A DNA stretch of 64,000 bases, taken from positions 744,001-808,000 of the forward strand of contig NZ_CP048795.1 in assembly GCF_011006175.1 (NCBI RefSeq). Reading direction: 5' to 3'. The position numbers and the translations under genes are program-made. This DNA comes from Hydrogenobacter sp. T-8 (GTDB taxonomy: Bacteria > Aquificota > Aquificia > Aquificales > Aquificaceae). This document shows, piece by piece, positions 12,437 to 51,402 of this stretch; positions within the stretch are counted from its first letter, which is position 1, and each line of letters starts with the position of its first letter. A model generated the notes under the pieces. It did no database searches. It saw only the letters and a list, made by a program, of their open reading frames with translations, and had not been told where the DNA came from.

Positions 12437-12458
12437 TTTCTGAGGAGTTCCACAGGAA
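12437..12458. promoter_or_regulatory. Operator palindrome 3, degenerate
   Basis: TTTCTGAGGAG then TTCCACAGGAA: recognisable but with several changes from the perfect form. No promoter is obvious beside it. Confidence 0.4.
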
Positions 12459-12553
12459 GAGTGATTTTTAAAAAAAGCTGTTTGAGAAGTCCCTAAGTTA
12501 AGGGACTGAATATTAGCTCCCCCTGGGGGAGGGGAGCAAAAGCTAAAAAGCTA

Positions 12554-12778
12554 TCAGCTTTCAATATAGGAAGTATGGTGGGTGTAGGGAATAAAGCCAA
12601 TTTCACGGTCTTGATTAAGAAAGAGATATCCGAGGATACTCCCGTTCCCATCTTCTACTATTATTTCCATTCCTGAAGCTAAAGCCCCTTTTATATCTTG
12701 CTTCGTTAGGAGATAAACTCCTAACATGTTCTTCGCACAGTATTCTCCAGATATTATTTTTCTGAGAATTTCAAACAT
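12554..12778 (-). CDS. Hypothetical protein, 74 aa, with long structured leader
   Basis: Small soluble protein (GMEIIVEDGNGSILGYLFLNQD, then GFIPYTHHTSYIES) with no recognised family. The start at 12778 is secured by GGAGGTGA six bases upstream. A consensus-like promoter lies ~220 bp away, leaving a long, highly folded 5' leader able to sequester this ribosome site. This makes it a candidate for riboswitch-type or RNA-mediated control despite its small size. Confidence 0.65.
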   Translation of the reverse strand: MFEILRKIISGEYCAKNMLGVYLLTKQDIKGALASGMEIIVEDGNGSILGYLFLNQDREIGFIPYTHHTSYIES

Positions 12779-12997
12779 GTTGTCACCTCCTTCAGGTTTT
12801 TTTATCCCCCTACAGGAGGCTGGCTACCTCTTCCCTGCCCCCACACAGGGAAGAAGAACACTCAAGGGAGTGCTTTCACCAGACCTCCTGAGGGCTTTAG
12901 AAAGAGACTTCAATCAAAGTCCCTCACTAAAACCCTCAGGGGTCTGGCTCTTCCCTGTGTGGCTATACCTTTCTTTGACTACCCTTTAGGGGTAGCA
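12779..12997 (-). ncRNA. Structured 5' leader, riboswitch-like
   Basis: Outer stem CCACACAGGGAAGA (12841-12854) with TCTTCCCTGTGTGG (12949-12962), 14 perfect pairs, encloses a CACTC/GAGTG hairpin (12859-12872) and a long arm AGACC-t-CCTGAGGG/CCCTCAGGGGTCT (12881-12945). Another CTTCCCTG at 12830-12837 can compete for the same CAGGGAAG. On the minus strand CCTCCT (12814-12819) can pair either with GGGGG (12806-12810) or with the ribosome site AGGAGG (12786-12791). These exclusive pairings are what a translational switch needs. Folding was done by eye. Confidence 0.6.
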
Positions 12998-13003
12998 ATT
13001 TTT

Positions 13004-13031
13004 ATTTTATCCCACTCACCAAAATTGTCAA
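13004..13031 (-). promoter_or_regulatory. Promoter of the structured leader
   Basis: On the minus strand TTGACA (13026-13031), a 16-bp spacer, and TAAAAT (13004-13009). Start of transcription near 12997. Confidence 0.65.
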
Positions 13032-13064
13032 GCAAAAAGAGGGAAAAGGAGGGAGAAGTCTTTT

Positions 13065-13108
13065 TTTCTGGGGAATTCCCCAGAAATTTCTGGGGAGTTC
13101 CACAGAAA
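13065..13108. promoter_or_regulatory. Operator palindromes 4 and 5, tandem
   Basis: A perfect copy at 13065-13086 directly abuts an imperfect one at 13087-13108 (TTTCTGGGGAG then TTCCACAGAAA), centres 22 bp apart, so two dimers could bind side by side. They lie between the left-going leader promoter and the parM operon. Confidence 0.75.
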
Positions 13109-13146
13109 TGGAAAGAGGGGGGATTTTATACCACAAAAGGCAAAGT

Positions 13147-13178
13147 GTGGCGAAGTGGCGAAGTGGCGAAGTGGCGAA
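13147..13178. repeat. Four tandem GTGGCGAA repeats, possible centromere
   Basis: Four exact 8-bp copies directly upstream of the parM promoter (TATAAT 13203-13208). In type II partition systems the parC centromere is a repeat array overlapping the par promoter and bound by ParR; this placement fits, though the units are shorter than usual. Confidence 0.5.
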
Positions 13179-13241
13179 TAGCCACAATTTCAAACTTTGT
13201 CCTATAATAACAGGAAAAGAACTTTTAGGAGGACAAAAGGC

Positions 13242-14120
13242 ATGAAGGTAGGGCTTGATGTGGGTTTTGGGCATGTGAAGGTAGCAACTCAGGAGAGAGT
13301 TTTTAAGTTTCCCTCGTGGATAGGGGTATGGAATGAGAAGGACATATCGGACGTTCAGCCTATATCTTTTGAGGGGAGGGACTATGTGGTGGGTGAGTCT
13401 GCAAGGTTTTGCACGCAAAGGGTGGAGCTAGTGGATTTTGAAACACTTTTGAGGTATTTACCTCTGATAGTGGAGTATGTAAAGAGGGAGCTTGGGGAGG
13501 AGGAGCTTGAGATAGGGGTGGGGCTGGCACCGAGGCACTACAGGAGGTATAAAGACAGTGAAGAGGTGAGGAAAAAGCTTTCTGGCTTTGAGCTTGTATT
13601 ACCTCAGGGTTTTGGAGTGCTTTTAGATGTAGAGGATGAGCTTGGTATAGAAGAGGGAGAAACGGTATTTGTAGTGGATATAGGTTTTAACACGGTGGAT
13701 TATCTTCTTGTATCAAAGCAAAATGGAAAATACTTCAGGGAAGGAATGGCAACTATAGAAAGGGCTGGGGTGCTTCAGGCGGTAGAGACTTTCAGGTCTA
13801 TTCTTCCTGCGGAGCTGGGGTATATCAAAAACTGGTCTCTTTCAAGGCTTGTAAAGGTTTTTGAAAGCGGGCAGGTGAATGTGGAAGGGGAGAAGATAGA
13901 CCTTAAAAGCTACAGGGAGAGGGCTATAGAGACTTACAGGACAGCTTTGTTAAGCAGGTTAAAGTCAGAGGTGGGAGAGGCGGTTTTGGAAAGTGATAAG
14001 GTAGTATCCGCAGGTGGGGGGGCGTATCTTCTTGGAAAGCTGAGGAAAGATGCCTATGTGCCTTCTGAGCCAGAGTTTTCAAATGCAAGAGGCTTTCTGA
14101 AAGCTCTTGAGTTAAGGTAA
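13242..14120 (+). CDS. parM: ParM-like actin ATPase for DNA segregation
   Basis: 292 residues of actin fold: phosphate-1 loop GLDVGFGHVKV at the N-terminus, phosphate-2 loop VVDIGFNTVDY near residue 142 and adenosine loop VVSAGGGAYLL near residue 260. These match plasmid ParM/StbA and archaeal homologues, which polymerise with ATP to push plasmid copies apart. Start ATG 13242 follows AGGAGG; an in-frame ATG at 13197 lies upstream of the -10 box's likely start and is rejected. The stop overlaps the next ATG (TAATG). Confidence 0.88.
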   Translation: MKVGLDVGFGHVKVATQERVFKFPSWIGVWNEKDISDVQPISFEGRDYVVGESARFCTQRVELVDFETLLRYLPLIVEYVKRELGEEELEIGVGLAPRHYRRYKDSEEVRKKLSGFELVLPQGFGVLLDVEDELGIEEGETVFVVDIGFNTVDYLLVSKQNGKYFREGMATIERAGVLQAVETFRSILPAELGYIKNWSLSRLVKVFESGQVNVEGEKIDLKSYRERAIETYRTALLSRLKSEVGEAVLESDKVVSAGGGAYLLGKLRKDAYVPSEPEFSNARGFLKALELR

Positions 14121-19022: not shown

Positions 19023-19062
19023 AAAGGAAGGCGGGGAGAAAAAGGAGGGAAGGGGCGTGGGC

Positions 19063-20394
19063 TTAGCCCCTGAGAAGTCTTGATAGCTTCTTAAGACACC
19101 CCTCAAGGGTGTCCTCAGCTATCACCCTGCTCCTGGGGATTTCCAGTCGCAGGGCATTTTTCAAAAATTCCCCTTTATAGCTTCCCCAATACACCCAATA
19201 TACATTGGGCTTTTTGGAGAAGCTCTTTCTGACCTTGCTCCCATCCTCATGGGACAAGGCAAGGTCAGAAATAATTATTGTTAAGGGGCTTGAATTTATG
19301 AAACGAGCGCAAGCCCACAGCCCCTCTGTCATCCCGTTAAAGGACGCCTTGTAAGCGTCCCTAACGGGGACTTTTTTTACTGTGTCATTCTTTACCAGCA
19401 GGACACTCCCCTTTAGCCCTGCTTTATACAGGGCATAGAGGAGCATCCTGACCTCCTCCTGAACCTTAAACATACTCCCCGACGTATCCACCACAATAAG
19501 TGGGTGGATCGTGGGGAGTTCCTCCTGCCTCACGAAAGGCTCTTCATCTCCCCGCAAGTATGAGGAGACTACAAGCCTTCCTGAGGAGGAAGGCACCCAC
19601 TCTGGCTCAGGAGCCTTGAAAAGCTCCCTCGCCAGCTTTATGATGGCAGGAGGGAGTTCTGGAGGAGGGACTTGCTCAAACCACCCCCCTCCTCTTTTCT
19701 CCTTCCCAGACAGGAAGCCCCCAGGTTCTTCAAGGCTTTCATATTCCTGAGGAGCTTCCTGCCTTATATCCTTTGCCCCACCCAACTCTATGGGTTTGGG
19801 CGGGCAAAGGTATGGGAATTTTTTCTTAAAGTATCTGGCTAAGCGGAGAGAACTCCACGCTGAGGCTTTGTAGAGCCTCCTCAGGAGCCTCTCCGCTCTT
19901 TTTATTAACTTTTCACCCCCCTCTGGACACTCCACCTTGTAGCCAAGGTGGAGATAGACCATTATAGATAACAGGTCGCCCACATTAGCTGTGGGCTTTT
20001 CAGAGGGGGGGAACTTCCCCAAATCAAACCCCAGGATTTCGGACATTTTGCCCTCAATCCTGAGGTCCTCCACAACATTTAAAACCTCCCCCAGCTCCTG
20101 ATACTCTTCCCAGAACTTTGGGTTCTGGGAGGGAGTGGGGGTGAAAAGGGCGTGTCCCAGCTCATGTAAAAAAGTCCTTAAAACCTCATCCCCCTCCTCC
20201 GTAGAGGGGAGGGTGATAAGGTCTTTTTTCTGAAACTTCCCCCTCAACTCCGCTGGTGTCCATGAGCCAGGGGGTCTTCTTACCACCCCCACCTCTATGG
20301 GTCTGGGGGTGGGAGGGAGTGTTTCAAACACTCCCTCTTTCCAGAGATACTGTAAATACAAGCTTTTGATATTATCCAGCCCTACACCTACCAT
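19063..20394 (-). CDS. VWA protein with N-terminal metallopeptidase motif (DUF2201-like)
   Basis: 443 residues. HELGHA at 77-82 with a further acidic site in NVVEDLRIE (~109) forms a gluzincin-like zinc site. Near residue 302 DTSGSM is a complete MIDAS metal site of a von Willebrand A domain. This pairing of a putative metallopeptidase domain with a VWA-like domain is known from DUF2201 proteins, which work with MoxR AAA+ ATPases, and such an ATPase lies just upstream. The coding sequence is filled with perfect inverted repeats, with two-tier stems for example at 19333-19368 and 19475-19519, and is richer in G+C than its neighbours. The ribosome site is GGAGG. Confidence 0.85.
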   Translation of the reverse strand: MVGVGLDNIKSLYLQYLWKEGVFETLPPTPRPIEVGVVRRPPGSWTPAELRGKFQKKDLITLPSTEEGDEVLRTFLHELGHALFTPTPSQNPKFWEEYQELGEVLNVVEDLRIEGKMSEILGFDLGKFPPSEKPTANVGDLLSIMVYLHLGYKVECPEGGEKLIKRAERLLRRLYKASAWSSLRLARYFKKKFPYLCPPKPIELGGAKDIRQEAPQEYESLEEPGGFLSGKEKRGGGWFEQVPPPELPPAIIKLARELFKAPEPEWVPSSSGRLVVSSYLRGDEEPFVRQEELPTIHPLIVVDTSGSMFKVQEEVRMLLYALYKAGLKGSVLLVKNDTVKKVPVRDAYKASFNGMTEGLWACARFINSSPLTIIISDLALSHEDGSKVRKSFSKKPNVYWVYWGSYKGEFLKNALRLEIPRSRVIAEDTLEGCLKKLSRLLRG

Positions 20395-20430
20395 CTTTTA
20401 CCTCCTTCAGGGATAAGAGGAAAGCAGGGG

Positions 20431-21675
20431 TCAGGTAAAGACCCCTTGCAGTGCCTTTTCAAGCACTGCCCTCTCCTCTATATCCCTGCTGTAGTATTTG
20501 ACAAGAAGCTGTGGCACTTCTTCCTCTTTCCTTGCCAGCTTTACTGCTCTTTCAAGCTGACGATAGGAGAGGAAGGTAGCCACAGCCCCCTCAGCATAGG
20601 CTTTCTCCATCTTCTCCCTGACCTTTACAAGCTTTTGAGCCAGAGAGGGGGAGAAGCCTCTTTTGACAACAAGCTCTGTGAGGAGGGTCTGCACCTGATT
20701 TAAGGACATCTTGATGGTTTCAGATGCAAACCTCTCCTCCAAGGCTTTGTCGGAGAGGGCAGAATTGACATACCCCTCACCGAGATTACCTGTGGCTATG
20801 AACCACAGGTTCTCAGCTGGGGCAAAAAATGTTCTCCCCAGTTCGGGGACAGACAGGGTGAATACCCTCTTGCCCCCTATCCACTTAGGGAATAGGGAGG
20901 CAACGAGGATACCCTGCTCCCGAACTGGTATCCTTGGTAATTCGTCTATCACCACCACCACCTTTTGCCCCTTCTCAGCCTGCATAAAGGCTTTGAGGAG
21001 AAGCCCGGGGCGGTAGGTGGTGCTGCCCCCTCTTATGCTGACCCCACCTAAGAGGTCTTTTGCCCCCACGTGGGGTCCTCCGTCAATATAGATAGCTTCC
21101 CAGCCCTCTGATACGAGCTGGTCAGCTATCTGATAAGCCATTCTGCTCTTCCCTTCCCCAGGAGGGCCTTCAAGCAAGAGATTGTAGCCCTCCTCTAAGT
21201 ATCTCCTCCACCATTCTTTATCCTCTATGGTGGAGGCGGGGGAGGGAGTAAGGTCAATGATTTCAAAATCATCCACTGCAAAGGAGGCTTTTACAAATGC
21301 CTCCTCGCAGTGTTTGCACCCTACCACATAATCCCCTGCCATTATTCCTTTTATATGGGGATTGGAGTGCTTCCTCCAGCATTCATCCGCTCCCTCCCTG
21401 AAATATTCCTCATAGAGGCTTTTCACCTCCTGAGGAATTTCAGGAGGGAAGTGCTGAGGCTCAAGAGAGCAGTAGTGCCTCCAATCGGAAGCTTTACTGC
21501 CCCCTTTGTAATGAAGAAGCACAGGGTGCTTTTTTGCACCCCCGTGGCTCTCTATGAGAGCCACTATAAAAATTTCTTCACCCTTCTTAAAAATTCTGCC
21601 CTTAACAAAGTTATCACGGGCAGAATTCTTAGATTTGTAAAAAATTGGGGTTGGGATTGTGGAAAACTTTACCAT
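20431..21675 (-). CDS. MoxR-family AAA+ ATPase
   Basis: 414 residues. Walker A GPPGEGKS at 170-177, Walker B VVVVIDELPR at ~238-247, sensor 1 IATGNLGEG and a C-terminal helical lid. The N-terminal ~140 residues are an extra domain with Cys 70, 99, 120 and 123 (CKHC) that may bind zinc. MoxR ATPases act as chaperones that remodel or load metal into targets chosen by a VWA partner, here the next gene 36 bp downstream. Like that gene, its DNA is a chain of hairpins, for example 21205-21236 with 10-bp arms and 21274-21312 with nested 6- and 7-bp arms. Confidence 0.88.
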   Translation of the reverse strand: MVKFSTIPTPIFYKSKNSARDNFVKGRIFKKGEEIFIVALIESHGGAKKHPVLLHYKGGSKASDWRHYCSLEPQHFPPEIPQEVKSLYEEYFREGADECWRKHSNPHIKGIMAGDYVVGCKHCEEAFVKASFAVDDFEIIDLTPSPASTIEDKEWWRRYLEEGYNLLLEGPPGEGKSRMAYQIADQLVSEGWEAIYIDGGPHVGAKDLLGGVSIRGGSTTYRPGLLLKAFMQAEKGQKVVVVIDELPRIPVREQGILVASLFPKWIGGKRVFTLSVPELGRTFFAPAENLWFIATGNLGEGYVNSALSDKALEERFASETIKMSLNQVQTLLTELVVKRGFSPSLAQKLVKVREKMEKAYAEGAVATFLSYRQLERAVKLARKEEEVPQLLVKYYSRDIEERAVLEKALQGVFT

Positions 21676-21961
21676 GGTATCCTCCTACCCCGCTGATAGA
21701 CTGTCCTGCCTCTCCCGCCAGAGGGAGGTCGGCAGGACAGCCAGAGGGCAGTCTCCAAGCTGGGGGTTATCCCCCGAGTAAGGCTTGGACTTACCCTCTG
21801 AATGCCTGCCTTCCCCCCTCAGCGGGAGCAGAGGGAAGGAGGTAGAGGCTTAAAACCTCTCAGGGAGAGAAAAAACAGAGCCTATAAAGACCCTCTTTCT
21901 TCTCTCCCTGAGAGGCTAACCTTCTTTTGGGAAGCCAAAGTTCCGCCTTCCTACAGGCTTA
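21676..21961 (-). ncRNA. Structured 5' leader of the MoxR/VWA operon
   Basis: A closing stem CCCGCTGA (21689-21696) with TCAGCGGG (21819-21826) encloses hairpins GTCCTGCC/GGCAGGAC (21703-21738, with an inner CTCCC/GGGAG) and CAGAGGG/CCCTCTG (21742-21800, with inner CCAAGC/GCTTGG and GGGGG/CCCCC). Next to it lies a 16-bp perfect stem (21856-21871 with 21900-21915). A CCTCCT on the minus strand (21837-21842) complements the ribosome site AGGAGG (21681-21686). This could be a regulatory leader or a free structured RNA. It fills the whole 317-bp gap. Confidence 0.6.
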
Positions 21962-21967
21962 TGGAAA

Positions 21968-21996
21968 ATTTTAAGTTCAGGAGGGAATTATTTCAA
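21968..21996 (-). promoter_or_regulatory. Probable promoter of the MoxR/VWA operon
   Basis: On the minus strand TTGAAA (21991-21996), 17-bp spacer, TAAAAT (21968-21973). It overlaps the last codons of the repressor gene. Confidence 0.55.
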
Positions 21997-41923: not shown

Positions 41924-42389
41924 AGATAGGATTACTCAAATTGTTATCCAGCACCAGCCTATAAACTTTTTCTTGTTTTTCCATGAGAAGTCTTTTGAAG
42001 TTCTCTACGAGCAAGAGGTTTTCTTTTTTGGCTACAAGGTGGTTATGCCTTACGATAACTTCCTGATAAAACTGCTCTTCAAAGACAGGGCAGTGGTTAA
42101 AAGTAAGAACATTGACCCATTTTGTAGGAATTACAACCCTTTCTCTTCCTTTAGTCAGCACCACATTTGAAAAATCCGCCGTAAAACAAAAATGGCAGTC
42201 TCCAAGATAGTCGCATTTGAAGATAGTCTGTTCTTCAAGAAGAAGCTCCTTATCCTCATAAAACCTTATAATGAGCGTGGAAAAAGGATTAAGCACAGAG
42301 CTGTCTGAGTATATCTCCGCTTTTATTTTCTTCTCTTTGCTTAAATCTACAAGGTCTCCAACAGTTATTTGCTTACCTTCTGAAACCAT
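41892..42389 (-). CDS. Hypothetical protein, 165 aa
   Basis: Soluble beta-rich protein (STLIIRFYEDKELLLEEQTI, FKCDYLGDCHFCFTADFSN with CDYLGDCHFC cysteines that could bind metal, ERVVIPTKWVNVLTF). Last gene of the left-going mating-pair operon, overlapping traN by 25 bp. Convergent with the membrane protein gene (32-bp overlap). No family recognised. Confidence 0.55.
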   Translation of the reverse strand: MVSEGKQITVGDLVDLSKEKKIKAEIYSDSSVLNPFSTLIIRFYEDKELLLEEQTIFKCDYLGDCHFCFTADFSNVVLTKGRERVVIPTKWVNVLTFNHCPVFEEQFYQEVIVRHNHLVAKKENLLLVENFKRLLMEKQEKVYRLVLDNNLSNPIFTVQVNLEVF

Positions 42390-43894
42390 GTCTGAACAGC
42401 TTCTAAAGATTTTTGAGTAGGGTTCATATTATTGAGCCTCTCTTGAAAAGATTGAGCCCGCTGAGATATCCAGTCTTCTATGGCTCTTACGCAGTCTGGA
42501 TTACCTAAATCTACCCTCTGAAAGTCTGAAAGAGCTATACCCCCACAATCAGGATTTTTTGGAGAACCCCAGCCTCTTCCAAGCTGTGGTCTAAAACAGC
42601 TCTCCTGAAGTATCCTTGCCAGCTGAGAATTAAAACAACAAAAAGAACGCTTTTTCTCTATACATACACCAAGAACCTTCTTAGAACAGTATGTGCCTAT
42701 TTCCTTGCATGTGCCAGCCTCTCTCCTCTTTTTCAACTCCTTTTCAGAATTACTACACATATCTGAAAACCACCCGCTTATACCACAACATGAAGCTCCC
42801 AGAACAGTAAGACCACCAGCCCTGCAGTCTTTCCTAAATCCTGCGAAAAAGACAGGATTAGTGCATTCCTGCAGGGAAGTGTCTGAAGAACTTACCTGCT
42901 GTGGAGTATCCTGAGCTGGCTCTGACTGAATAAAAGAACTTACCGTATCCTGCGTCATACACGGATGATTACATCTGTTTTCATCTGAAGATACAACAGC
43001 TCCTTTGAGTTTTAGCTCACAATAACCCTGAGGATTTGGCATAGTTCCAGAAGGACAAGTATACGAAAAAGTAATTGATCCTTTAGATGCCCCATCATAA
43101 AAAATTAGTTGGTTTCCATTAGGTACAGCATGAAAACGACAACCACTTACTATATACGATAAAGGAGATGTTTGAGGCACAATTGTAATATTCCCTTGAG
43201 AAAAATTAAAAACAAATTTTCCATTAGAATAATGACTGTCACATGGACTGGCTAAATATGTTGCAACCATCTGATTGCCACTACCTACAAATGTCCAATA
43301 ACCAGGCTTGCTCATCTGCCCTGTTACTACTATCTGCCCTGAATGGAAAGAAAATTCTAAACATGTACCTGTTTCAATATGGCATAATTTATTCCCCTTC
43401 CCTTGAAAAGTGCCATAGCTCATTGTAGAGGTTTGTCCTGATACAGTTATCGATCCTTCGTCAAGGGGTATCCCTCCCTGAGGTGCTGGCTTTACCTGCC
43501 CTCCCTGCAGATAACCTTCACAGACCCACACATTGTCAAGGCTTAAAGACTGAGCTGTTTGAGCTGGCATACATGAAACACCCAAAGAAGAAAGGATATT
43601 CTGATAGTCAGAATAAGTCATTTCATTCTTTGACACAAAATTAGACGAAACTATAAAACCATTTACATTCTGTCCTCCCACCTTATCAAAATCAGTGCAG
43701 AGCTTATCCTGAAGGTCTATAGGACACCAATAGACACCATTCACATTCTGACAATCCTGCACATAATCACTGCAAGAGGTCGCACCCTCAGATACATCCT
43801 TTACAACACACTTAGGCGTGCTGTCAAAACAATTAATAGCCTGAGAAAAACTTAAGCCTGACACAAATAACAGTAAAGCTACTACCTTCCACAT
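42365..43894 (-). CDS. traN: TraN, F-type mating-pair stabilisation protein
   Basis: 509 residues with a signal peptide (VVALLLFVSGLSFSQA) and many cysteines. The C-terminal third is diagnostic for TraN: CCGISGWFSDMC, GTYCSKKVLGVCIEKKRSFC, then ARILQESCFRPQLGRGWGSP and DCGGIALSDFQRVDLG. TraN is an outer-membrane adhesin that contacts the recipient. The N-terminal half is repetitive and divergent, as expected for a surface-exposed part. It overlaps the large Cys-rich gene upstream by 13 bp. Confidence 0.9.
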   Translation of the reverse strand: MWKVVALLLFVSGLSFSQAINCFDSTPKCVVKDVSEGATSCSDYVQDCQNVNGVYWCPIDLQDKLCTDFDKVGGQNVNGFIVSSNFVSKNEMTYSDYQNILSSLGVSCMPAQTAQSLSLDNVWVCEGYLQGGQVKPAPQGGIPLDEGSITVSGQTSTMSYGTFQGKGNKLCHIETGTCLEFSFHSGQIVVTGQMSKPGYWTFVGSGNQMVATYLASPCDSHYSNGKFVFNFSQGNITIVPQTSPLSYIVSGCRFHAVPNGNQLIFYDGASKGSITFSYTCPSGTMPNPQGYCELKLKGAVVSSDENRCNHPCMTQDTVSSFIQSEPAQDTPQQVSSSDTSLQECTNPVFFAGFRKDCRAGGLTVLGASCCGISGWFSDMCSNSEKELKKRREAGTCKEIGTYCSKKVLGVCIEKKRSFCCFNSQLARILQESCFRPQLGRGWGSPKNPDCGGIALSDFQRVDLGNPDCVRAIEDWISQRAQSFQERLNNMNPTQKSLEAVQTWFQKVSK

Positions 43895-46647
43895 ATCTTA
43901 TCCCTCAAAGCTTCTCTTATTACGCTTAAAACTCCCGTTGCTACAGTAAAACCACTCATTGGCTTTTCTTTACAGGGTTCTACAAGCTCCTCACCAGCAT
44001 TAACAGGACAGTTTGGATTACACTCCCTCGTATCATACTCTCTCCTGTTCTGACTGTTGATATACTTCACCACGCAATACTGCTTTCCGGAATAAGTGCC
44101 TTTCGGATAAGAAGAAGTGCCACCACCCTGACAAACACTTTGAGGCTCAGATACACATGAGGTAGCCCCTTCCAACCACCCATCGGGACATGCTTTATTA
44201 AAAGGCTTTTCACACAAATCAGAATAAGTATTCAAAGTGCCACCATCTGGACATACAGCAGAAGCTATACAGAGCGACCAATCAGGAGTGAAACTCCCAT
44301 TATCGCAAGTTCCACACCTATAATACCTCTTTGTCAGCATATCATACCCTACCCTCATAAACACATAATCACACCCACGACAACAATGAGAAGCACTAAT
44401 TGAAACATCTATTTGTTTGCTACCATCATTAGTCCAAACTGGTTGCCAGTTTATATACTGATTACAAGCTGTGCTTCTACTTGCAAGAACCTGCCCTGTA
44501 GCACTGTCGACAATATTAGTCCAGGTATTGGTAGTATCATTATCGCAAGAGTAATCCACCACAAGATACAATCTCAAGGTAAGCCCCTTATAAACAGGGT
44601 CGTTAAAAGGAAGACCAGACTTTCCACTACTCAGCGTCCAACTTCCTCTCAAGCATCTCCCAGTATTTATCTCACCAAGAACACAATAATCTCTTCCATT
44701 TACATTTATAACGCTGTAAGCACACGGATATGTAGGTTCTTCTTTTATAAGTTTGCATTGCGGATTATTTCTGTAAAAATCATCATCAGGCGTCCCTTTA
44801 TAAGCTATGAAAAGTCCTATAGGCTTTTCACACCTGTCAGTAGCTGGATTATAAGTCATATCTTGAGGACAATCTGGAGCTTTTCCGCATATAGAACCTA
44901 TTTTCTGATAAGGTGAAGAACATAAGGGGTTCTTCTGTCTGATACACTGACCGTTTATAAGCTGTCCTTCAGGACATACTTTCCCACAGTTTTCACCCCA
45001 GCTAAAGGTATTGCCATTCTCAGAAATAGAACCAAGCACATTTGATACTCTTGTAAGGTCTATACTCTTTAAATGCTTGCTGTAGCTACTTGTATCTGAT
45101 ACACACTGATACTCTATCCTCTGAGACCACCATGTTCTACACTCATAGGAATTTCCAAAAGGCATGCAGGTTTTCGGCGGATATCCACAGTTCTGAGGAG
45201 GACTTTGTGCTGTAGAAAATCTACTTTCCCATCTTTTCATGCTCTCATCTCTTACTACCTCTTGACAATAAGCTACTTTCTCTAAAAGCTTTCCGCTTGA
45301 AACTATCTGATACTCTTTCCCATTTGCATCTCTCCACCAGATATTCACAGGAACACAGTTTTTAGTAGCGTCATTTAGCTCCTCACAGCCAGTAAAAATT
45401 TCCCCTGTAGGTCTTGTAAGCGTCCATCTAAAGTAATTACAGGAATTAGAATTTATGCTAACCTCAAAAATGTTTGAATTGTCAGAAGGATTATAGGTAT
45501 TCTTTGCACTCACCGTAAATGTGCCGTTGCCTGTGCTTAAAGAACCTATCGGCGTCCAGTTATAAGACCTGTCTACGGAAATAGGCACTTCAAGAGGATA
45601 AGGCGGAGGTGGTGGCACATCTACCGAATATCTCCCCTGTCTGTCATAATAGCCTTCTTTAAAAGCATAGCCTTTAAGCACATAACCCGTGCCTTGTGGA
45701 TTACATTCAAGGAAAAGCATCGTGGAAAAAGCAAAAAAGTCAGAAAGGTTTCCGCAAACAGTCTGGCTTTCATTGTATCCTTCTGGATACAATCTTGCAT
45801 TCGGCACGCATACCTGCTGACTGCTTATAGAAGACAAAAGCTCTCTTTTGAGAATGCATTGACGCACATTGGTAGCACCTATAGCCTGTTGCATGCCAGT
45901 AAGAGCCTTACACTCAGGAAGGTCAGGCTGCCCCCTACAAAGTGCCTGCCTGTAGATGCTATCATCCGTTATCCTGTAAGGATTTGCCATATAAGATGCC
46001 TGCGGTGGATTTGAAGAAGAACATACCTGTCTTGCTACACTATAGCTTATCTGATTGCCAGTCTTTACATCCTTTGTAAGCACCACATTCCCACCATAAC
46101 TTTCCACTAAAAGAGAAGCAAGATGAATACCAAAAGAATACACATCCACAGGATATAGAGAACAGCCCTTAAGCTCAGAAACAGTAACTACACTAAAAGC
46201 CCCAGAAGAAAACACTACCTTACCACAATCACTAAAAACTCCATTAGAGTAGGAGTTGCAATAGCCTTCATTACACAGATACTTAAAGCTAAAGCTCTGA
46301 CTACTCCAAGAACCACCAAGAACAGGTTTATAGGAAACAGTTAGATTGTATTGTCCGCTTTGGAAATCATAACCACCTGAAATTTTCAATATCTCCTCTG
46401 TCCCACCTGAGGTGGTGCATGTAATAGACTTGCTATCAAACTTTTCCCCAGAAGGCTGAGTATAACCTTTACCAGTTTCCGCAGGATTTTTTATATTCTG
46501 CTCAAAATTACCTTTTCCTTCATAAACACTCCTGATTTTATTACCCCAGTCTTCTCCCAATGCCTTTGGGTCTTGTGCAAAAACAAGACCACCTGCACTA
46601 AAAAGCACAACAATCCCTTTTACGATAAACCATCCACGCCCATACAT
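43882..46647 (-). CDS. Large secreted cysteine-rich protein, TraN-like adhesin candidate
   Basis: 921 residues with a signal peptide (GIVVLFSAGGLVFAQ). It has dozens of cysteines and many short CPxG...C units such as CPEGQLINGQCIRQKNPLC, CPQDMTYNPATDRC and CPDGGTLNTYSDLCEKP, resembling extracellular cysteine-knot repeats. It sits between traU and traN in the operon, so a second surface adhesin or TraN partner is likely. The start overlaps traU by 50 bp. Substantial disulfide formation would need the TraF and DsbC-like proteins encoded nearby. Confidence 0.65.
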   Translation of the reverse strand: MYGRGWFIVKGIVVLFSAGGLVFAQDPKALGEDWGNKIRSVYEGKGNFEQNIKNPAETGKGYTQPSGEKFDSKSITCTTSGGTEEILKISGGYDFQSGQYNLTVSYKPVLGGSWSSQSFSFKYLCNEGYCNSYSNGVFSDCGKVVFSSGAFSVVTVSELKGCSLYPVDVYSFGIHLASLLVESYGGNVVLTKDVKTGNQISYSVARQVCSSSNPPQASYMANPYRITDDSIYRQALCRGQPDLPECKALTGMQQAIGATNVRQCILKRELLSSISSQQVCVPNARLYPEGYNESQTVCGNLSDFFAFSTMLFLECNPQGTGYVLKGYAFKEGYYDRQGRYSVDVPPPPPYPLEVPISVDRSYNWTPIGSLSTGNGTFTVSAKNTYNPSDNSNIFEVSINSNSCNYFRWTLTRPTGEIFTGCEELNDATKNCVPVNIWWRDANGKEYQIVSSGKLLEKVAYCQEVVRDESMKRWESRFSTAQSPPQNCGYPPKTCMPFGNSYECRTWWSQRIEYQCVSDTSSYSKHLKSIDLTRVSNVLGSISENGNTFSWGENCGKVCPEGQLINGQCIRQKNPLCSSPYQKIGSICGKAPDCPQDMTYNPATDRCEKPIGLFIAYKGTPDDDFYRNNPQCKLIKEEPTYPCAYSVINVNGRDYCVLGEINTGRCLRGSWTLSSGKSGLPFNDPVYKGLTLRLYLVVDYSCDNDTTNTWTNIVDSATGQVLASRSTACNQYINWQPVWTNDGSKQIDVSISASHCCRGCDYVFMRVGYDMLTKRYYRCGTCDNGSFTPDWSLCIASAVCPDGGTLNTYSDLCEKPFNKACPDGWLEGATSCVSEPQSVCQGGGTSSYPKGTYSGKQYCVVKYINSQNRREYDTRECNPNCPVNAGEELVEPCKEKPMSGFTVATGVLSVIREALRDKICGR

Positions 46648-47614
46648 GTCTATTAACTCCTGGTATTTCTTTTCCTAAGCCCCAAAGAATAAAAGAAGAC
46701 CTGCCTATTGGGAAACGCTTTGGATACAAAATAGGATAAATGGGATAGATGTTATACTGGCTTTTTCTCATGAGTGGCATTGGATAGTAGCCACAAAGAG
46801 CCTGCTGACCAAAACTGCCCCAGAGGATAAGCTCTCTGTGAAGTTTGAAAAGCATCCTCGCTACCATAAGCCCTGAGGACTGAGTGCTATCAAGCCCACC
46901 TGCATTTTCAGACATAGGGAAAAGGCTACCCCATGAACCTCCACACCAAAAAAGAACGTCTATTGGAAAGCCGAGGCTTGATGCAACTGCATCTGCCATA
47001 CATGCCAGCTGAGCTACAGGATTTGCTACAAGAAAAGCTTCAGGACCTATTATACTTGCTAGTATATCGTTCTGCCATAGAGGGTCAAGCTCTGTCATAT
47101 ACGCTATGTCCCACGGTGCCCTTGCTTCTAAACAAACAAAGTCCATAAAAAGCTCTAAAAGAGCCCACGGAAGAAATCTATAGTAATGCACCTGAAGACT
47201 TCTAAGCTCAGTATTAGCTCCCCCATCCGCAGTCTTAGAAGAGTCTGCCCCTAAAGCCTGTGCATTCACAGGCACAGGCACCTGCATTCCAAGAGTAGGA
47301 GAACACCATGGAACTTTAACTGGTTCTACAATAGCTATGGGTTCCCATAAGGATATAGTTATACCCACTCTCGGGAAAGGCTTCATGCATATACATATAG
47401 GAGCTGAGCCTAAATCAATATCTTCAAGCCCGCTCCAGTTCATTATAGTCATTGAGCCTATTTTGATAGGAAACACATTGTATATGGTGCTTATAGCCGT
47501 CATAACAATCTGAAGGGTTGTAGAAGGGTTAGCAGGACAGATTACCTTTGACACAGGGTTCTGAGCAAAAGCCAGAGAAACCAGCATAGTCAGTAAAACC
47601 ACCACCTTCCTCAT
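46598..47614 (-). CDS. traU: TraU, F-type pilus assembly protein
   Basis: 338 residues, signal peptide VVVLLTMLVSLAFAQ. Strong TraU features: NWSGLEDIDLGSAPICICMK, GITISLWEPIAIVEPVKVPW, YYRFLPWALLELFMDFVC, WCGGSWGSLFPMS and the C-terminal FILWGLGKEIPG. TraU is a periplasmic protein needed for DNA transfer. Start overlaps the traW stop by 4 bp. Confidence 0.95.
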   Translation of the reverse strand: MRKVVVLLTMLVSLAFAQNPVSKVICPANPSTTLQIVMTAISTIYNVFPIKIGSMTIMNWSGLEDIDLGSAPICICMKPFPRVGITISLWEPIAIVEPVKVPWCSPTLGMQVPVPVNAQALGADSSKTADGGANTELRSLQVHYYRFLPWALLELFMDFVCLEARAPWDIAYMTELDPLWQNDILASIIGPEAFLVANPVAQLACMADAVASSLGFPIDVLFWCGGSWGSLFPMSENAGGLDSTQSSGLMVARMLFKLHRELILWGSFGQQALCGYYPMPLMRKSQYNIYPIYPILYPKRFPIGRSSFILWGLGKEIPGVNRHVWAWMVYRKRDCCAF

Positions 47615-48219
47615 AACTCATCTTCTCCCAAAACCTTAACCACAGCTACCTTCCTCTGCATATCCCAAGTAATAAGACTTACCCCCTCTGTTATCTGAAA
47701 ACGCTCCTTTATAAGAGGATTGAGAAAATAAACCCTTGTCTTGAAAGTTTTCATAAGCTCATCTACCCTTCCTCTTGAGGCTATAAGCATAGTGTTTAAC
47801 CTGTAAAAACTTAAAAGCTTTTCCACAATCCTTACCTGCCTCCTATCCTCTCCATCAAAAACTATCAAAGTAGGTGGTGCCATGGGCACATAATCAAGCG
47901 GATTAAAGGTGTATCCCTTTGGATAAAGAACTCCTACCACTTTACCTGACTTATCTACTCTTGGTATTTCATACGGAGAACTCCATTTTAAAGATACATG
48001 CCTTACTTTGCTCTTCTTGGCTAAAGGTAAAGCCACAGACCAGCCCTCTGGAGGTTTTAAAGCTTTCCCCTGAGACTTCGCCACCGCCTCTAAAAACTTC
48101 TTCTGCAAAACCGCCTTCCTGCTTTCTATCTCCTGTAAAAGGTCAGGCTCTACTATGGGATAGGTGGTAGCACCAAAAGCAATGCCTATTAGAAGACTAC
48201 CAGCTAATAAGCCTTTCAT
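47611..48219 (-). CDS. traW: TraW, F-type pilus assembly protein
   Basis: 202 residues. Signal peptide LLAGSLLIGIAFGA, then the TraW signature TYPIVEPDLLQEIESRKAVL and the conserved YPKGYTFNPLDY, followed by LIVFDGEDRRQV and a short-chain TrbC-like end. It acts in the periplasm with TraU and TrbC. Overlaps traF upstream by 23 bp. Confidence 0.92.
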   Translation of the reverse strand: MKGLLAGSLLIGIAFGATTYPIVEPDLLQEIESRKAVLQKKFLEAVAKSQGKALKPPEGWSVALPLAKKSKVRHVSLKWSSPYEIPRVDKSGKVVGVLYPKGYTFNPLDYVPMAPPTLIVFDGEDRRQVRIVEKLLSFYRLNTMLIASRGRVDELMKTFKTRVYFLNPLIKERFQITEGVSLITWDMQRKVAVVKVLGEDEL

Positions 48220-48988
48220 CCTTAATCTCCCCTAAGTTGTAAAGCCCAAATATTACGCTATCTTCTAACTCATCAAGAGCCATAGCTCCAGAACCTATCC
48301 TCTGCCACTCAAAAGTCCCATTCCTTTTCAGCACAAGGAATATGTCAGGAACAAGCTGTGTTCCAAATCTGGATGCTAAATCTGGACGCTCCTGAATATC
48401 CACCTCCTTTGTATCCCATCCCCACTTTTCCCTGAAAAGCCTTAAAGTCCCCGAAAAAGCCCTACAGTAAGGACAGCCTTTCTCAACAAAAACTATTATT
48501 CCTGCCCTGTCTCTATACTTTGAAAATATCTCCTTCTTCCTCTCATTCCTGTATTCTGCCATGGCTATACGGGCAGGAGTAAAGTTCTGCTTTTGCATAT
48601 AGCCGGGTTCAGTTTTGAGAACTTTGTAATGCACGAAGGCAAACTTCTCCGCCCTGTCATTAATCCACATAACAAGCCTCTTCCACTCCCTCACATTTTC
48701 CTCTGTAGGGTTCATTATGGCTATCTTCCTGCTCTCCTCTTCCAGCTTTGATATTTCCTCAGGGTCCATCTGGTCTAATTTGTCCCAGGGGATTTGAACA
48801 ACTTTCTTTTTCAGAAGCTTTACACTTTCCTGCTTTTCTTCCTTCTTTACTTCCTTCCTCTCCTCTTTTTTTTGGCAGACTTCCTTCCAGAACCAGCCCC
48901 TTTCTGCATCTTGGTAGAACTCCTTAAGAGGTTTGCACTCCTCCTGAGCAAAAACCACAAGAGGAATGAACAGAAGGATTTTCCTCAT
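48197..48988 (-). CDS. traF: TraF, periplasmic thioredoxin-like protein of F-type systems
   Basis: 263 residues. A signal peptide (KILLFIPLVVFAQ), a Lys/Glu-rich linker and the TraF domain with IIVFVEKGCPYCRAFSGTL, whose CPYC is a thioredoxin-type active site (absent in F plasmid TraF but present in many relatives), and a QLVPDIFLV cis-Pro loop. It probably helps form disulfides in TraN, TraU and the large Cys-rich protein. On the minus strand TTGAAT-17-TAAAAT lies 8 nt before the ATG. First gene of the operon. Confidence 0.9.
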   Translation of the reverse strand: MRKILLFIPLVVFAQEECKPLKEFYQDAERGWFWKEVCQKKEERKEVKKEEKQESVKLLKKKVVQIPWDKLDQMDPEEISKLEEESRKIAIMNPTEENVREWKRLVMWINDRAEKFAFVHYKVLKTEPGYMQKQNFTPARIAMAEYRNERKKEIFSKYRDRAGIIVFVEKGCPYCRAFSGTLRLFREKWGWDTKEVDIQERPDLASRFGTQLVPDIFLVLKRNGTFEWQRIGSGAMALDELEDSVIFGLYNLGEIKDERLISW

Positions 48989-49005
48989 AATAAGACATTT
49001 TACTC

Positions 49006-49034
49006 TTGACAGGGGGAAAATTCAAGTATATAAT
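49006..49034 (+). promoter_or_regulatory. Consensus promoter of the pilin operon
   Basis: TTGACA, 17-bp spacer, TATAAT, both perfect. It overlaps the divergent traF promoter. No operator palindrome is seen here, unlike other operons of the element. Confidence 0.8.
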
Positions 49035-49064
49035 GTCCGTAAAATACTTTTAGGAGGTAAAACC

Positions 49065-49388
49065 ATGAGGAACCTGCTTGCAAAACTTTACCTCAAGCCA
49101 GAGCTTTTTTCCTTAGGGCTACTTGTAGCCCTTGCCACAGTTATTGCCCTTGCACCAGACCTGTCCTTTGCTGGAACAGGTGGTGCAGAAGTGCAAACAT
49201 GGTATCAGGACATATCTAACTCCCTCAAAGGCTTTTGGGGCAAACTCATAGCCTTAGCTTTCATAGGTTTTAGCCTCATGGCTTTCAAGCAAGGAGCTAT
49301 AATCCCTGCCATTTTCCTCATCTTCATAGGTCTTGGCGTAGGTGTCATACCTGACGTGGTAGATACCAGATTTACCTTGCTCTTCTAA
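49065..49388 (+). CDS. traA: TraA/VirB2-like pilin
   Basis: 107 residues. A long leader (LGLLVALATVIALAPDLSFAG) is probably cut after SFA, leaving a ~65-residue pilin with two hydrophobic helices (LIALAFIGFSLMAFKQG and IIPAIFLIFIGLGVGVIP). Size, topology, place right before traL and a perfect promoter with AGGAGG ribosome site all fit the major conjugative pilin. An in-frame start at 48966 lies upstream of the promoter and is rejected. Confidence 0.85.
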   Translation: MRNLLAKLYLKPELFSLGLLVALATVIALAPDLSFAGTGGAEVQTWYQDISNSLKGFWGKLIALAFIGFSLMAFKQGAIIPAIFLIFIGLGVGVIPDVVDTRFTLLF

Positions 49389-49396
49389 TCCTTTAT

Positions 49397-49413
49397 GGGG
49401 GCTTTGCCCCTTT
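49397..49413 (+). terminator. Short hairpin between pilin and traL
   Basis: GGGGC-TTT-GCCCC followed by TTT. A weak terminator here would give more pilin mRNA than downstream message. Confidence 0.4.
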
Positions 49414-49421
49414 GAAGAACA

Positions 49422-49700
49422 ATGGAAAAACACTACATACCCAAATATGTGAATGCTCTTCCTCAGATACTCTGGTGGGAGATAGATGAGTTTGCTTTCT
49501 TCTTAGGGGGAGTTATTTTCGGCATTATATCAAACCACTCCTTTCTTGGAGCCATCATAGGCTTTCTTCTTGCAAAAGGATACATGAGGCTAAAGTATGG
49601 CAAACAGAATGGCTTTTTATTTCACTGGCTTTATTCAAAAGGACTGTATGGGAAAAAGGGAAGAGTGCCTGAATACTGGGTGAAAGAGTTCATAGAATGA
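49422..49700 (+). CDS. traL: TraL, F-type pilus assembly protein
   Basis: 92 residues: YIPKYVNALPQILWWEIDEF then FFLGGVIFGIISNHSFLGAI and YMRLKYGKQNGFLFHWLY, the compact two-helix TraL pattern (VirB3-like inner-membrane protein). It follows the pilin gene directly. TraE, TraK, TraB and TraV, which normally follow, are not here; they may lie right of the window. It ends convergent with a hypothetical gene. Confidence 0.88.
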   Translation: MEKHYIPKYVNALPQILWWEIDEFAFFLGGVIFGIISNHSFLGAIIGFLLAKGYMRLKYGKQNGFLFHWLYSKGLYGKKGRVPEYWVKEFIE

Positions 49701-50229
49701 GGGATTTTTCAAGGAGAAGATAAAACCCCACCCTGTCTATAAGAAACCCTTCGTAAGTAGCCTTAAGCGGAGTTATCAAAAACCCGTCTAAATGAAGATA
49801 AGTCCTGTTTCTCAAAGCGGAGATAAGATAAAGGTAGTGTTCCTTTTTTGGTCTTATCTCCTTTATACCACCAAGCAAAAGATAAGCTCCTTTTCTGTCT
49901 TTGCCAAAAACCCACGCATTCCACCTGTAGTTTATACTCTGGTAAGAAATAGACTGAATATAGACATCCAAAGCACAATGAAAAGTCCTGTAGAGTTCCA
50001 CAACCCCATAAGCGTAGTTTGACTTCCTTATGAATATCTCATTTTCTAACTTCTCTCCCTCTGCAGTTTTTGTAGTCAGAGCTATCTCCCAGCCATCTTC
50101 CTTTTTTATCTTCACACTGCTATAATGCCCTGTCCTTAACTTCTCAAGCCTTATAAGCGTGCCAAAATCTACCGTGCCTAAAATCTCATGCAGGTCAAGC
50201 GTGTATTCTCCCTTTATGCCGAGGCTCAT
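49690..50229 (-). CDS. Hypothetical protein, 179 aa
   Basis: Soluble, beta-rich at the start (EYTLDLHEILGTVDFGTLIR, WEIALTTKTAEGEKLE) with NYRWNAWVFGKDRKGAYLLL in the middle. Start overlaps the stop of the upstream gene by 4 bp, so both form one unit. No family recognised. Confidence 0.55.
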   Translation of the reverse strand: MSLGIKGEYTLDLHEILGTVDFGTLIRLEKLRTGHYSSVKIKKEDGWEIALTTKTAEGEKLENEIFIRKSNYAYGVVELYRTFHCALDVYIQSISYQSINYRWNAWVFGKDRKGAYLLLGGIKEIRPKKEHYLYLISALRNRTYLHLDGFLITPLKATYEGFLIDRVGFYLLLEKSLIL

Positions 50230-50846
50230 AAGCCAGCCATGAACCTCAAAATGTTGTCAAAAGTGCCTCTAAACCTTGCAAAGGGGTGTAGCCTGTCTCC
50301 TTTCCTCAACAAAACTACCCAGTTCCCGTCTATCACCACCCTCAAAGGCTTTGTGTCTATTACTTTCTTCTGTCTCTGACGAAGATAATCCTCAAACCCC
50401 CAGAAGAGTTGCTCCCTGCTTATCTCATCAAGGTCTAACCCCTGCACTCCATACCTTAAAGACACTTTCCCATCTTCCTTTACCAGCACAAGCTCCTCTA
50501 CCATACTTGCCTTTAGAGAATTCCTTATCCACTCAAGAAGAGTTCTGAGTTCTTCTCTTCTGAAGACCCTTGATAGCTTTTCTTCTCCCCTCTCATAGAG
50601 AAGAATGGCACGACACTTTTCACCCGTGAAAAGCACAAGCCTGCTATCCTTGTAGTAAAAAACCGCTCTGGGAGGCTTTTCTCCATCTTTAACAGGCAAA
50701 TCCCAGTAAGCATATCCACCTGCTACATAAAAACTCACAAGATTGACAGGCAGGGGCAGAGAAACCTCTTTCTCTTCTCCCCTCAAAACCACACCAGAAC
50801 TATCAAGACTTACCGACACATTTCCTTCAAATTCCAACACACTCAT
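50226..50846 (-). CDS. Hypothetical protein, 206 aa, leaderless
   Basis: N-terminal beta domain (LEFEGNVSVSLDSSGVVLRG, PPRAVFYYKDSRLVLFTGEK), then helical (ELRTLLEWIRNSLKASMVEE) and a basic C-terminus. Minus-strand TATAAT at 50854-50859 is exactly 7 nt before the ATG at 50846. Two operators lie between it and the right-going gene at 50947. No family recognised. Confidence 0.6.
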   Translation of the reverse strand: MSVLEFEGNVSVSLDSSGVVLRGEEKEVSLPLPVNLVSFYVAGGYAYWDLPVKDGEKPPRAVFYYKDSRLVLFTGEKCRAILLYERGEEKLSRVFRREELRTLLEWIRNSLKASMVEELVLVKEDGKVSLRYGVQGLDLDEISREQLFWGFEDYLRQRQKKVIDTKPLRVVIDGNWVVLLRKGDRLHPFARFRGTFDNILRFMAGL

Positions 50847-50882
50847 GAAGAAAATTATAGGTCAGTCAAAGAAAAAGAACCT

Positions 50883-50904
50883 TTTCTGGGGAATTCCCCA
50901 GAAA
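50883..50904. promoter_or_regulatory. Operator palindrome 12, perfect
   Basis: Both halves match TTTCTGGGGAA. It lies between two divergent leaderless promoters, closer to the left-going one. Confidence 0.8.
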
Positions 50905-50905
50905 T

Positions 50906-50927
50906 TTTCTGTGAAACTCCTCAGAAA
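50906..50927. promoter_or_regulatory. Operator palindrome 13, degenerate
   Basis: TTTCTGTGAAA then CTCCTCAGAAA, one base after operator 12. Its centre is 17.5 bp from TATAAT (50934-50939) of the right-going gene. Confidence 0.55.
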
Positions 50928-50946
50928 AAGGGCTATAATTAACCTT

Positions 50947-51402
50947 ATGGACAGGCTTGACAGGATAAAAGAGCTTGTGGAGAAAAGGACAAAAGAGGAG
51001 GAGATAGTCTATAAACTTGCAAGTCTTGAAGAAAAGGAAAGAGAGGAGATACTGGCACAGGTGGAGAGGGAAGACCCAAAACTTGCAGATGAGCTGAGGA
51101 AGAAGATTAAAGAAGTTGAAGTGTATGGCTTTATTAATTTAAACTGGGTGAAGGAAAGATATGTGGAAGGACAGATTTTTGGTATCATTGTTTTGCTCAC
51201 ACTCTTAATGCTTGTTATTATCGGCTCTTTGCTTTACTTCACAAGCATTATAGATGATGTCCAGCTGTTTTTCTTCATATTTCCTGCTTTCCTGCTTAGT
51301 ATTTTGATAGCTACACCAATCTACTTGCTACTCCCCCGTCAGTTAAAGAATAAAATTGCTATATATATCAAACGCTATTCATTCTTTTCTCCTCCCTCCT
51401 GA
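50947..51402 (+). CDS. Coiled-coil membrane protein, 151 aa, leaderless
   Basis: A charged coiled-coil N-terminus (DRLDRIKELVEKRTKEEEIV) of ~75 residues precedes two membrane helices (FGIIVLLTLLMLVIIGSLLY and FFFIFPAFLLSILIATPIYL). TATAAT lies 7 nt before the ATG, with two operators just upstream. Convergent with traG (24-bp overlap). No family recognised; a role in entry exclusion or mating regulation would suit a small membrane protein beside traG, but this is speculation. Confidence 0.6.
   Translation: MDRLDRIKELVEKRTKEEEIVYKLASLEEKEREEILAQVEREDPKLADELRKKIKEVEVYGFINLNWVKERYVEGQIFGIIVLLTLLMLVIIGSLLYFTSIIDDVQLFFFIFPAFLLSILIATPIYLLLPRQLKNKIAIYIKRYSFFSPPS

Follow-up and report, generated by a model that had tools for sequence, protein, structure and literature searches.

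Predicted RNA structure along the whole length of a MoxR/VWA operon in Hydrogenobacter sp. T-8

Introduction

Folding that extends across a whole coding RNA is known from RNA viruses as genome-scale ordered RNA structure (GORS), in which hairpins are dispersed over the molecule in a strand-specific manner. Pairing of this kind can also be designed, and in superfolder mRNAs synthetic synonymous choices maximize the pairing of the coding sequence. To our knowledge, coding RNA as fully folded as that reported below has precedents only in RNA viruses, in designed mRNAs, and in certain mitochondrial genes of animals.

Mitochondrial genes of Nematomorpha carry coding palindromes, perfect inverted repeats of up to 284 bp that lie within working genes, are all-or-none, and are rapidly gained and lost; a mutational account was proposed in which they are functionless by-products (PMC6649704). 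Template switching has been described as an origin of RNA hairpins (PMC8794818). By gene content, the nearest systems are the vWA-MoxR ternary conflict systems, in which genes for a MoxR-type ATPase and a VWA protein are adjacent and the defining third protein, VMAP, bears an effector or adaptor domain (PMC7159879, PMC10907252).

Here we analyze 64,000 nt of the Hydrogenobacter sp. T-8 chromosome (NZ_CP048795.1, 744,001-808,000), referred to as the window, whose numbering is used throughout. An earlier note had described a MoxR/VWA operon in the window as packed with perfect inverted repeats, and had proposed either that the mRNA or single-stranded DNA is selected to fold or that a strand-switch process perfects palindromes there.

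Results

The operon and its setting

Positions 19049-21960 of the window, here called the block, comprise two intact minus-strand genes and a leader, which form a bicistronic MoxR/VWA operon (Table 1). The first product was recognized as a MoxR-type AAA+ ATPase by its AAA_5 match and its Walker A and Walker B (VVIDE) motifs. The second was assigned as a VWA protein from its DTSGSM motif and its alignment with VWA1 of plasmid pTHEAM01, a Pfam VWA hit being absent. No VMAP was found among the neighboring genes using the general profiles of Pfam and PADLOC. The window also encodes an integrase, an S24-type repressor, a sigma factor, topoisomerase I, and the F-type transfer proteins TraN, TraU, TraF, TraG, and TraH (42365-55847), a gene content that would most likely place the operon on an integrated conjugative element akin in kind to pTHEAM01.

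Table 1. Features of the structured MoxR/VWA block, in window coordinates
Feature	Position	Strand	Remarks
Predicted sigma-70-type promoter, TTGAAA-N17-TAAAAT	21968-21996	-	Consensus match only, 10/12; about 8 nt upstream of structure start
Structured non-coding 5' leader, 285 nt	21676-21960	-	Includes RBS GGAGG ahead of ATG
Leader hairpin, 16-bp perfect arms	21856-21915	-	
Second leader hairpin	21701-21740	-	
MoxR-type AAA+ ATPase gene, 414 aa, fold throughout	20431-21675	-	AAA_5 E 4.9e-10; sense-strand MFE against codon-preserving shuffles, z -15.5
Walker A codons GPPGEGKS, aa 170-177	21145-21168	-	In MoxR-type ATPase gene
Metallopeptidase-like/VWA protein gene, 443 aa, fold throughout	19063-20394	-	Sense-strand MFE against codon-preserving shuffles, z -13.1
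HELGH codons, aa 77-81	20152-20166	-	Counterpart HEIGH in pTHEAM01 VWA1
MIDAS-like DTSGSM codons, aa 303-308	19471-19488	-	In VWA gene
Three-way-junction-like fold across MoxR stop/VWA start	20408-20487	-	Perfect hairpins 20426-20446 and 20448-20469
13-bp perfect hairpin, VWA gene	19226-19271	-	
11-bp perfect hairpin, VWA gene	20313-20337	-	
Helix with both partners altered in G002 copy	19914-20011	-	19914 G to A, 20011 C to T (sense strand)
3' end of structured block, right past VWA stop codon	19049-19062	-	

Inverted repeats and folding energy

The block held 61 perfect inverted repeats (20.9/kb; minimum arm 6 nt, maximum loop 40 nt), 24 of them with arms of at least 8 nt and the longest with arms of 16 nt; the earlier note had estimated about 45, with arms of 6-11 bp. 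The remaining window, divided into 20 equal tiles, had a mean of 8.8/kb and a maximum of 11.3/kb. The MoxR and VWA genes held 19.3/kb and 21.8/kb, compared to 8.9/kb in codon-preserving shuffles of each (n=200; maxima 14.5 and 14.3/kb, respectively); the reported packing with repeats was confirmed. Three repeats that had been singled out (19082-19123, 19333-19368, and 21274-21312) are exact, as are two of the hairpins inside the three-way-junction-like fold between the genes. The "four tiers" reported at 20948-21022 are indeed nested, but their helix is imperfect. Stems in the block have a mean arm of 10 nt, with 32 mismatches inside 49 stems, and a codon phase so weakly biased as to be uninformative. 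The G+C content of the block is higher, as had been claimed, at 50-51% versus about 42%. Beyond what the note had described, the block takes in the non-coding leader, and its signal on the minus strand, that of the mRNA, slightly exceeds that on the plus strand.

Folding energies, computed for 37 °C whereas the relatives of the host are thermophiles, lay 13-16 SD below those of codon-preserving shuffles on the sense strand of the block (Table 1); the antisense z was -10.7 for the VWA gene and -11.1 for the MoxR gene. Eight other genes of the window had sense-strand values of +0.9 to -3.9, with neighbors close to 0. The predicted fold pairs 68% of the bases at -486 kcal/mol per kb, compared to -442 for the tmRNA in the same window. 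Over most of 19050-21950 the energy was lower than in shuffles by 15-28 kcal/mol per 150 nt, with sharp edges to a baseline of about -3. When the whole 1.8-Mb chromosome was scanned in tiles, the block came out on top for each strand (-22.6 and -18.2 per 150 nt, 900-nt average; runners-up about -14 and about -13). No place in the genome is more structured than the MoxR/VWA block, and a general genome property was rejected as the cause, given that the block alone tops the scan on both strands. Rfam covariance models at the gathering score matched only the tmRNA and one tRNA in the window, and none matched in the block.

Second on the minus strand in the same scan was window 12451-13350, a largely non-coding stretch with large nested hairpins preceding a ParM-like gene; it is possibly an RNA gene, a replication origin, or a partition site. 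Other structured places of the Hydrogenobacter sp. T-8 chromosome lie at 48301-49200, 814051-815100, 1561801-1562700, and 1749001-1750050.

Strand and transcript shape

The structure is confined to one transcription unit: it begins just downstream of the predicted promoter, runs across the leader and the two genes with the junction between them, and halts just past the VWA stop codon. Promoter-like sites lie directly ahead of structure at two independent loci, the block and the AAA2/VWA2 genes of pTHEAM01. Stems were defined by Watson-Crick pairs alone, making the search blind to strand, and the mismatches within them could then be compared. On the sense strand of the block these were 14 G.U and 2 A.C; the corresponding counts on pTHEAM01 were 7:2 in AAA2/VWA2 and 43:12 in the block from ssb to 09265, and the pooled counts, stem ends included, were 179:90 (p 6e-8). 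Control genes mostly gave about 1:1, one pTHEAM01 control being reversed (12:37), and the excess was not seen at the two weakest structured loci (pGMOR and G087). The share of G.U among long-helix pairs in the block was 11% on the sense versus 5% on the antisense strand.

This preference for G.U makes the transcript the likeliest candidate for the folded molecule. Transcripts are likewise indicated by pTHEAM01, whose structured blocks are distributed over both DNA strands; the bias there follows the sense strand wherever it is significant, there being none otherwise. The bias identifies the strand and not the chemistry, since G.T is also tolerated better than A.C in DNA, and some of the G.U excess could come from biased mutation of the sense strand.

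Recurrence in related operons

Among 136 Aquificota genomes searched, close relatives of the two proteins were found only in the sister species G002, and IMG/VR yielded none. A search of plasmids led to pTHEAM01 of Thermovibrio ammonificans, typed MPF_F, whose AAA1/VWA1 genes form a distant counterpart operon (common motifs HE(L/I)GH, VEDxRIE, and SGSM) with codon-shuffle z of -14.4/-8.9. The AAA2/VWA2 genes of the same plasmid gave -12.8/-15.8, with unstructured neighbors and an onset beside the promoter-like site. Upstream of AAA1, ssb, Rad52, and several hypothetical genes had z of about -4 to -7, and 09265 had -10.1 (L056 17996-26324); the remaining pTHEAM01 genes were mostly between 0 and -5.

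A scan of a genome collection gave 80 loci, 71 of which were tested for folding. Locus L148, 52% identical to pTHEAM01 AAA2, had a z of -11.2 for the AAA gene, -16.9 for the first half of the ATPase gene, and -11.7 for the disordered linker of its VWA protein. The AAA domain of G087 gave -8.0, and weaker values were obtained for Gloeobacter pGMOR1 (-5.1) and a Lachnospiraceae locus (-5.7). Nearly all the other tested loci were unstructured. The confinement to one operon that had been reported holds inside this genome, but the folding recurs in other genomes and plasmids.

In L148, positions 2046-2648, the disordered VWA linker is encoded nearly wholly by hairpins, with a G+C content of 45% in a contig of 29% G+C.

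Two generalizations were considered and rejected. Folding is not a general MoxR property, as homologues from Variovorax, Deinococcus, a halovirus, and a phage, along with most of the 71 genome loci, are unstructured. Nor is it a general trait of Thermovibrio or Aquificota plasmids: chromosome samples of Thermovibrio and relatives showed baseline folding, and these samples, most pTHEAM01 genes, Aquifex ece1, and a Persephonella plasmid are without such blocks. End-to-end folding is a lineage trait, dispensable for the proteins, because most homologues tested are without structure.

Covariation and the sister-species copy

The AAA2 gene of pTHEAM01 and L148 have 44 stem pairs in common, within four hairpins at homologous codons, compared to a mean of 3.5 and a maximum of 22 for codon-shuffled L148. 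Ten of these pairs are altered on both sides, two on one side, and none is broken; 6 of the 10 compensatory pairs are transversion-type. Compensatory change in homologues, the mark of a conserved structured RNA, is present between AAA2 and L148. With more distant relatives no stems were common beyond chance, MFE-wide pair conservation was about that of the null, and a conserved common fold for the MoxR family was not found among the homologues compared. Over longer times it is the folded state that is kept, and no particular fold.

For the window's own sequence, the sole relative is the G002 copy, 98.6% identical, which offers one clear compensatory pair (Table 1) and many changes that break window pairs. 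Within the block the copies differ by 40 substitutions in 2912 nt and one 6-nt insertion (1.4%), and in the flanks by 3 in 1228 nt and 1 in 1554 nt (about 0.14%), so that changes are about 10 times denser inside the block than outside. They include three adjacent bases (19591-19593) and five substitutions within 13 nt (19458-19470), and the 6-nt insertion sits within a 6-nt inverted repeat. Altered codons in 19063-21675 are 25 non-synonymous and 9 synonymous, a ratio that could reflect a rapidly changing protein under constraint at synonymous sites, or else cassette exchange. The MFE of the G002 copy, -1377 kcal/mol, is better than that of every one of 40 mutants generated at random from the window copy with an equal substitution spectrum (best -1375). 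By a sigma-factor-like gene, G002 also carries an IS607-like insertion with serine-recombinase-like and TnpB-like ORFs (L008 4247-6464) that is absent from the window copy.

Discussion

The reading we favor, at about even confidence, is that the bicistronic mRNA, leader included, has been selected for as much pairing as its proteins allow. Such selection would account for the strand bias and for edges that coincide with those of a transcript, and likewise for the conserved hairpins and the differences from gene to gene on pTHEAM01. It would act on the RNA itself and, because stem positions turn over, through hairpins formed locally and not through a single fixed fold. Selection on conjugative elements would bring the mRNA of the MoxR/VWA gene pair to maximal pairing, with template-switch mutation perhaps supplying perfect hairpins that selection retains. 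Of the two ideas in the earlier note, that of a nucleic acid selected to fold is best supported for mRNA, by the G.U bias, the promoter edges, and the compensated hairpins in relatives.

Protection of the message would be the most likely benefit, in which pairing would shield a mobile-element mRNA against host RNases, RNA-guided immunity, or heat hydrolysis. The genes for RAMP, a type III CRISPR effector, are present in the host and in Thermovibrio (G000 and G132); no RAMP hit was obtained in G002 or G087, both draft assemblies, which weakens the CRISPR version of protection. More tentatively, and with somewhat less than even confidence, we suggest a whole class of mobile-element mRNAs paired from leader to stop as a defense against RNA-targeting immunity or decay, with parts of the proteins, such as the L148 VWA linker, shaped by the RNA. 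The recurrence in some related operons hints at an undescribed role for mRNA folding, probably in protecting the message.

The other idea of the note, that template switching keeps perfecting imperfect palindromes and leaves the folded mRNA as a functionless by-product, has precedents in PMC6649704 and PMC8794818 and is rather unlikely as the whole account. Several features suit it as a source of hairpins, namely the clustering and tenfold density of the G002 changes, the insertion within an inverted repeat, and the six transversion-type compensations between AAA2 and L148, for which no G.U route is possible. Such a process is strand-symmetric, yet the sense strand shows more G.U than A.C; it leaves unaccounted for the edges at promoter and gene end and the unstructured genes between structured ones, and the block's helices are rich in mismatches and G.U, unlike the all-or-none repeats of Nematomorpha.

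We consider it unlikely, a degree more so, that the folded mRNA is a ligand whose hairpins are bound by the MoxR or VWA protein or another protein of the element for autoregulation, assembly, or packaging. The strongest association with MoxR/VWA pairs at several distant loci and the strongly structured leader are consistent with such binding. Against it, hairpin sequence and position are not common to families, structure extends to ssb and Rad52 on pTHEAM01, and no RNA-binding domain was recognized, the VWA protein having no Pfam hit.

Very improbable is selection on single-stranded DNA, with the sense strand folding during conjugative transfer to provide promoters, nuclease hiding, or replication initiation. 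F-type transfer genes are present in the window, pTHEAM01 is MPF_F with its ssb/Rad52 block, and since dG.dT is tolerated better than dA.dC the mismatch bias fits DNA too; however, one transfer involves one strand, whereas the pTHEAM01 blocks lie on both strands with the significant bias following the sense, and the edges match transcription units. Chance, base composition, or codon usage is a negligible explanation despite the raised G+C of the block, because codon-preserving shuffles keep the composition and the block is still 13-16 SD off, as well as first in the genome scan.

A folded operon set against mostly unfolded homologues provides a naturally matched test of why a message folds, whether for half-life, heat, RNases, or RNA-guided immunity. 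In the operon, template-switch mutation might also be told apart from selection on RNA structure, an old question on compensatory changes.

The described systems each resemble the block in part. Like the vWA-MoxR ternary systems, it has adjacent genes for a MoxR-type ATPase and a VWA protein, but VMAP was not recognized next to the block with Pfam and PADLOC profiles, and mRNA folding goes unmentioned in the available text on those systems. Template switching could create and re-perfect stems like those seen here; it explains supply, and not the restriction to certain transcripts or the sense-strand bias. With the Nematomorpha genes the block has in common perfect inverted repeats within functional genes, but its nested arms measure 6-16 bp, contain G.U pairs, show a strand bias, and occur in certain operons only; its mismatched stems also depart from a pattern of long perfect repeats with no excess of imperfect ones. 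Nothing of the GORS type in bacterial mRNA, and no other bacterial counterpart, was found in the part of the published literature that was searched. Like GORS, the block has scattered hairpins in place of a single conserved element, a strand preference, and an energy well below that of sequence-order controls along the whole RNA; it differs as a DNA-encoded bacterial operon with sharp edges, at a chromosomal locus by an integrase and transfer genes, and not in an RNA virus. As in superfolder mRNAs, synonymous choices raise pairing, and the difference is that the MoxR/VWA operon is natural.
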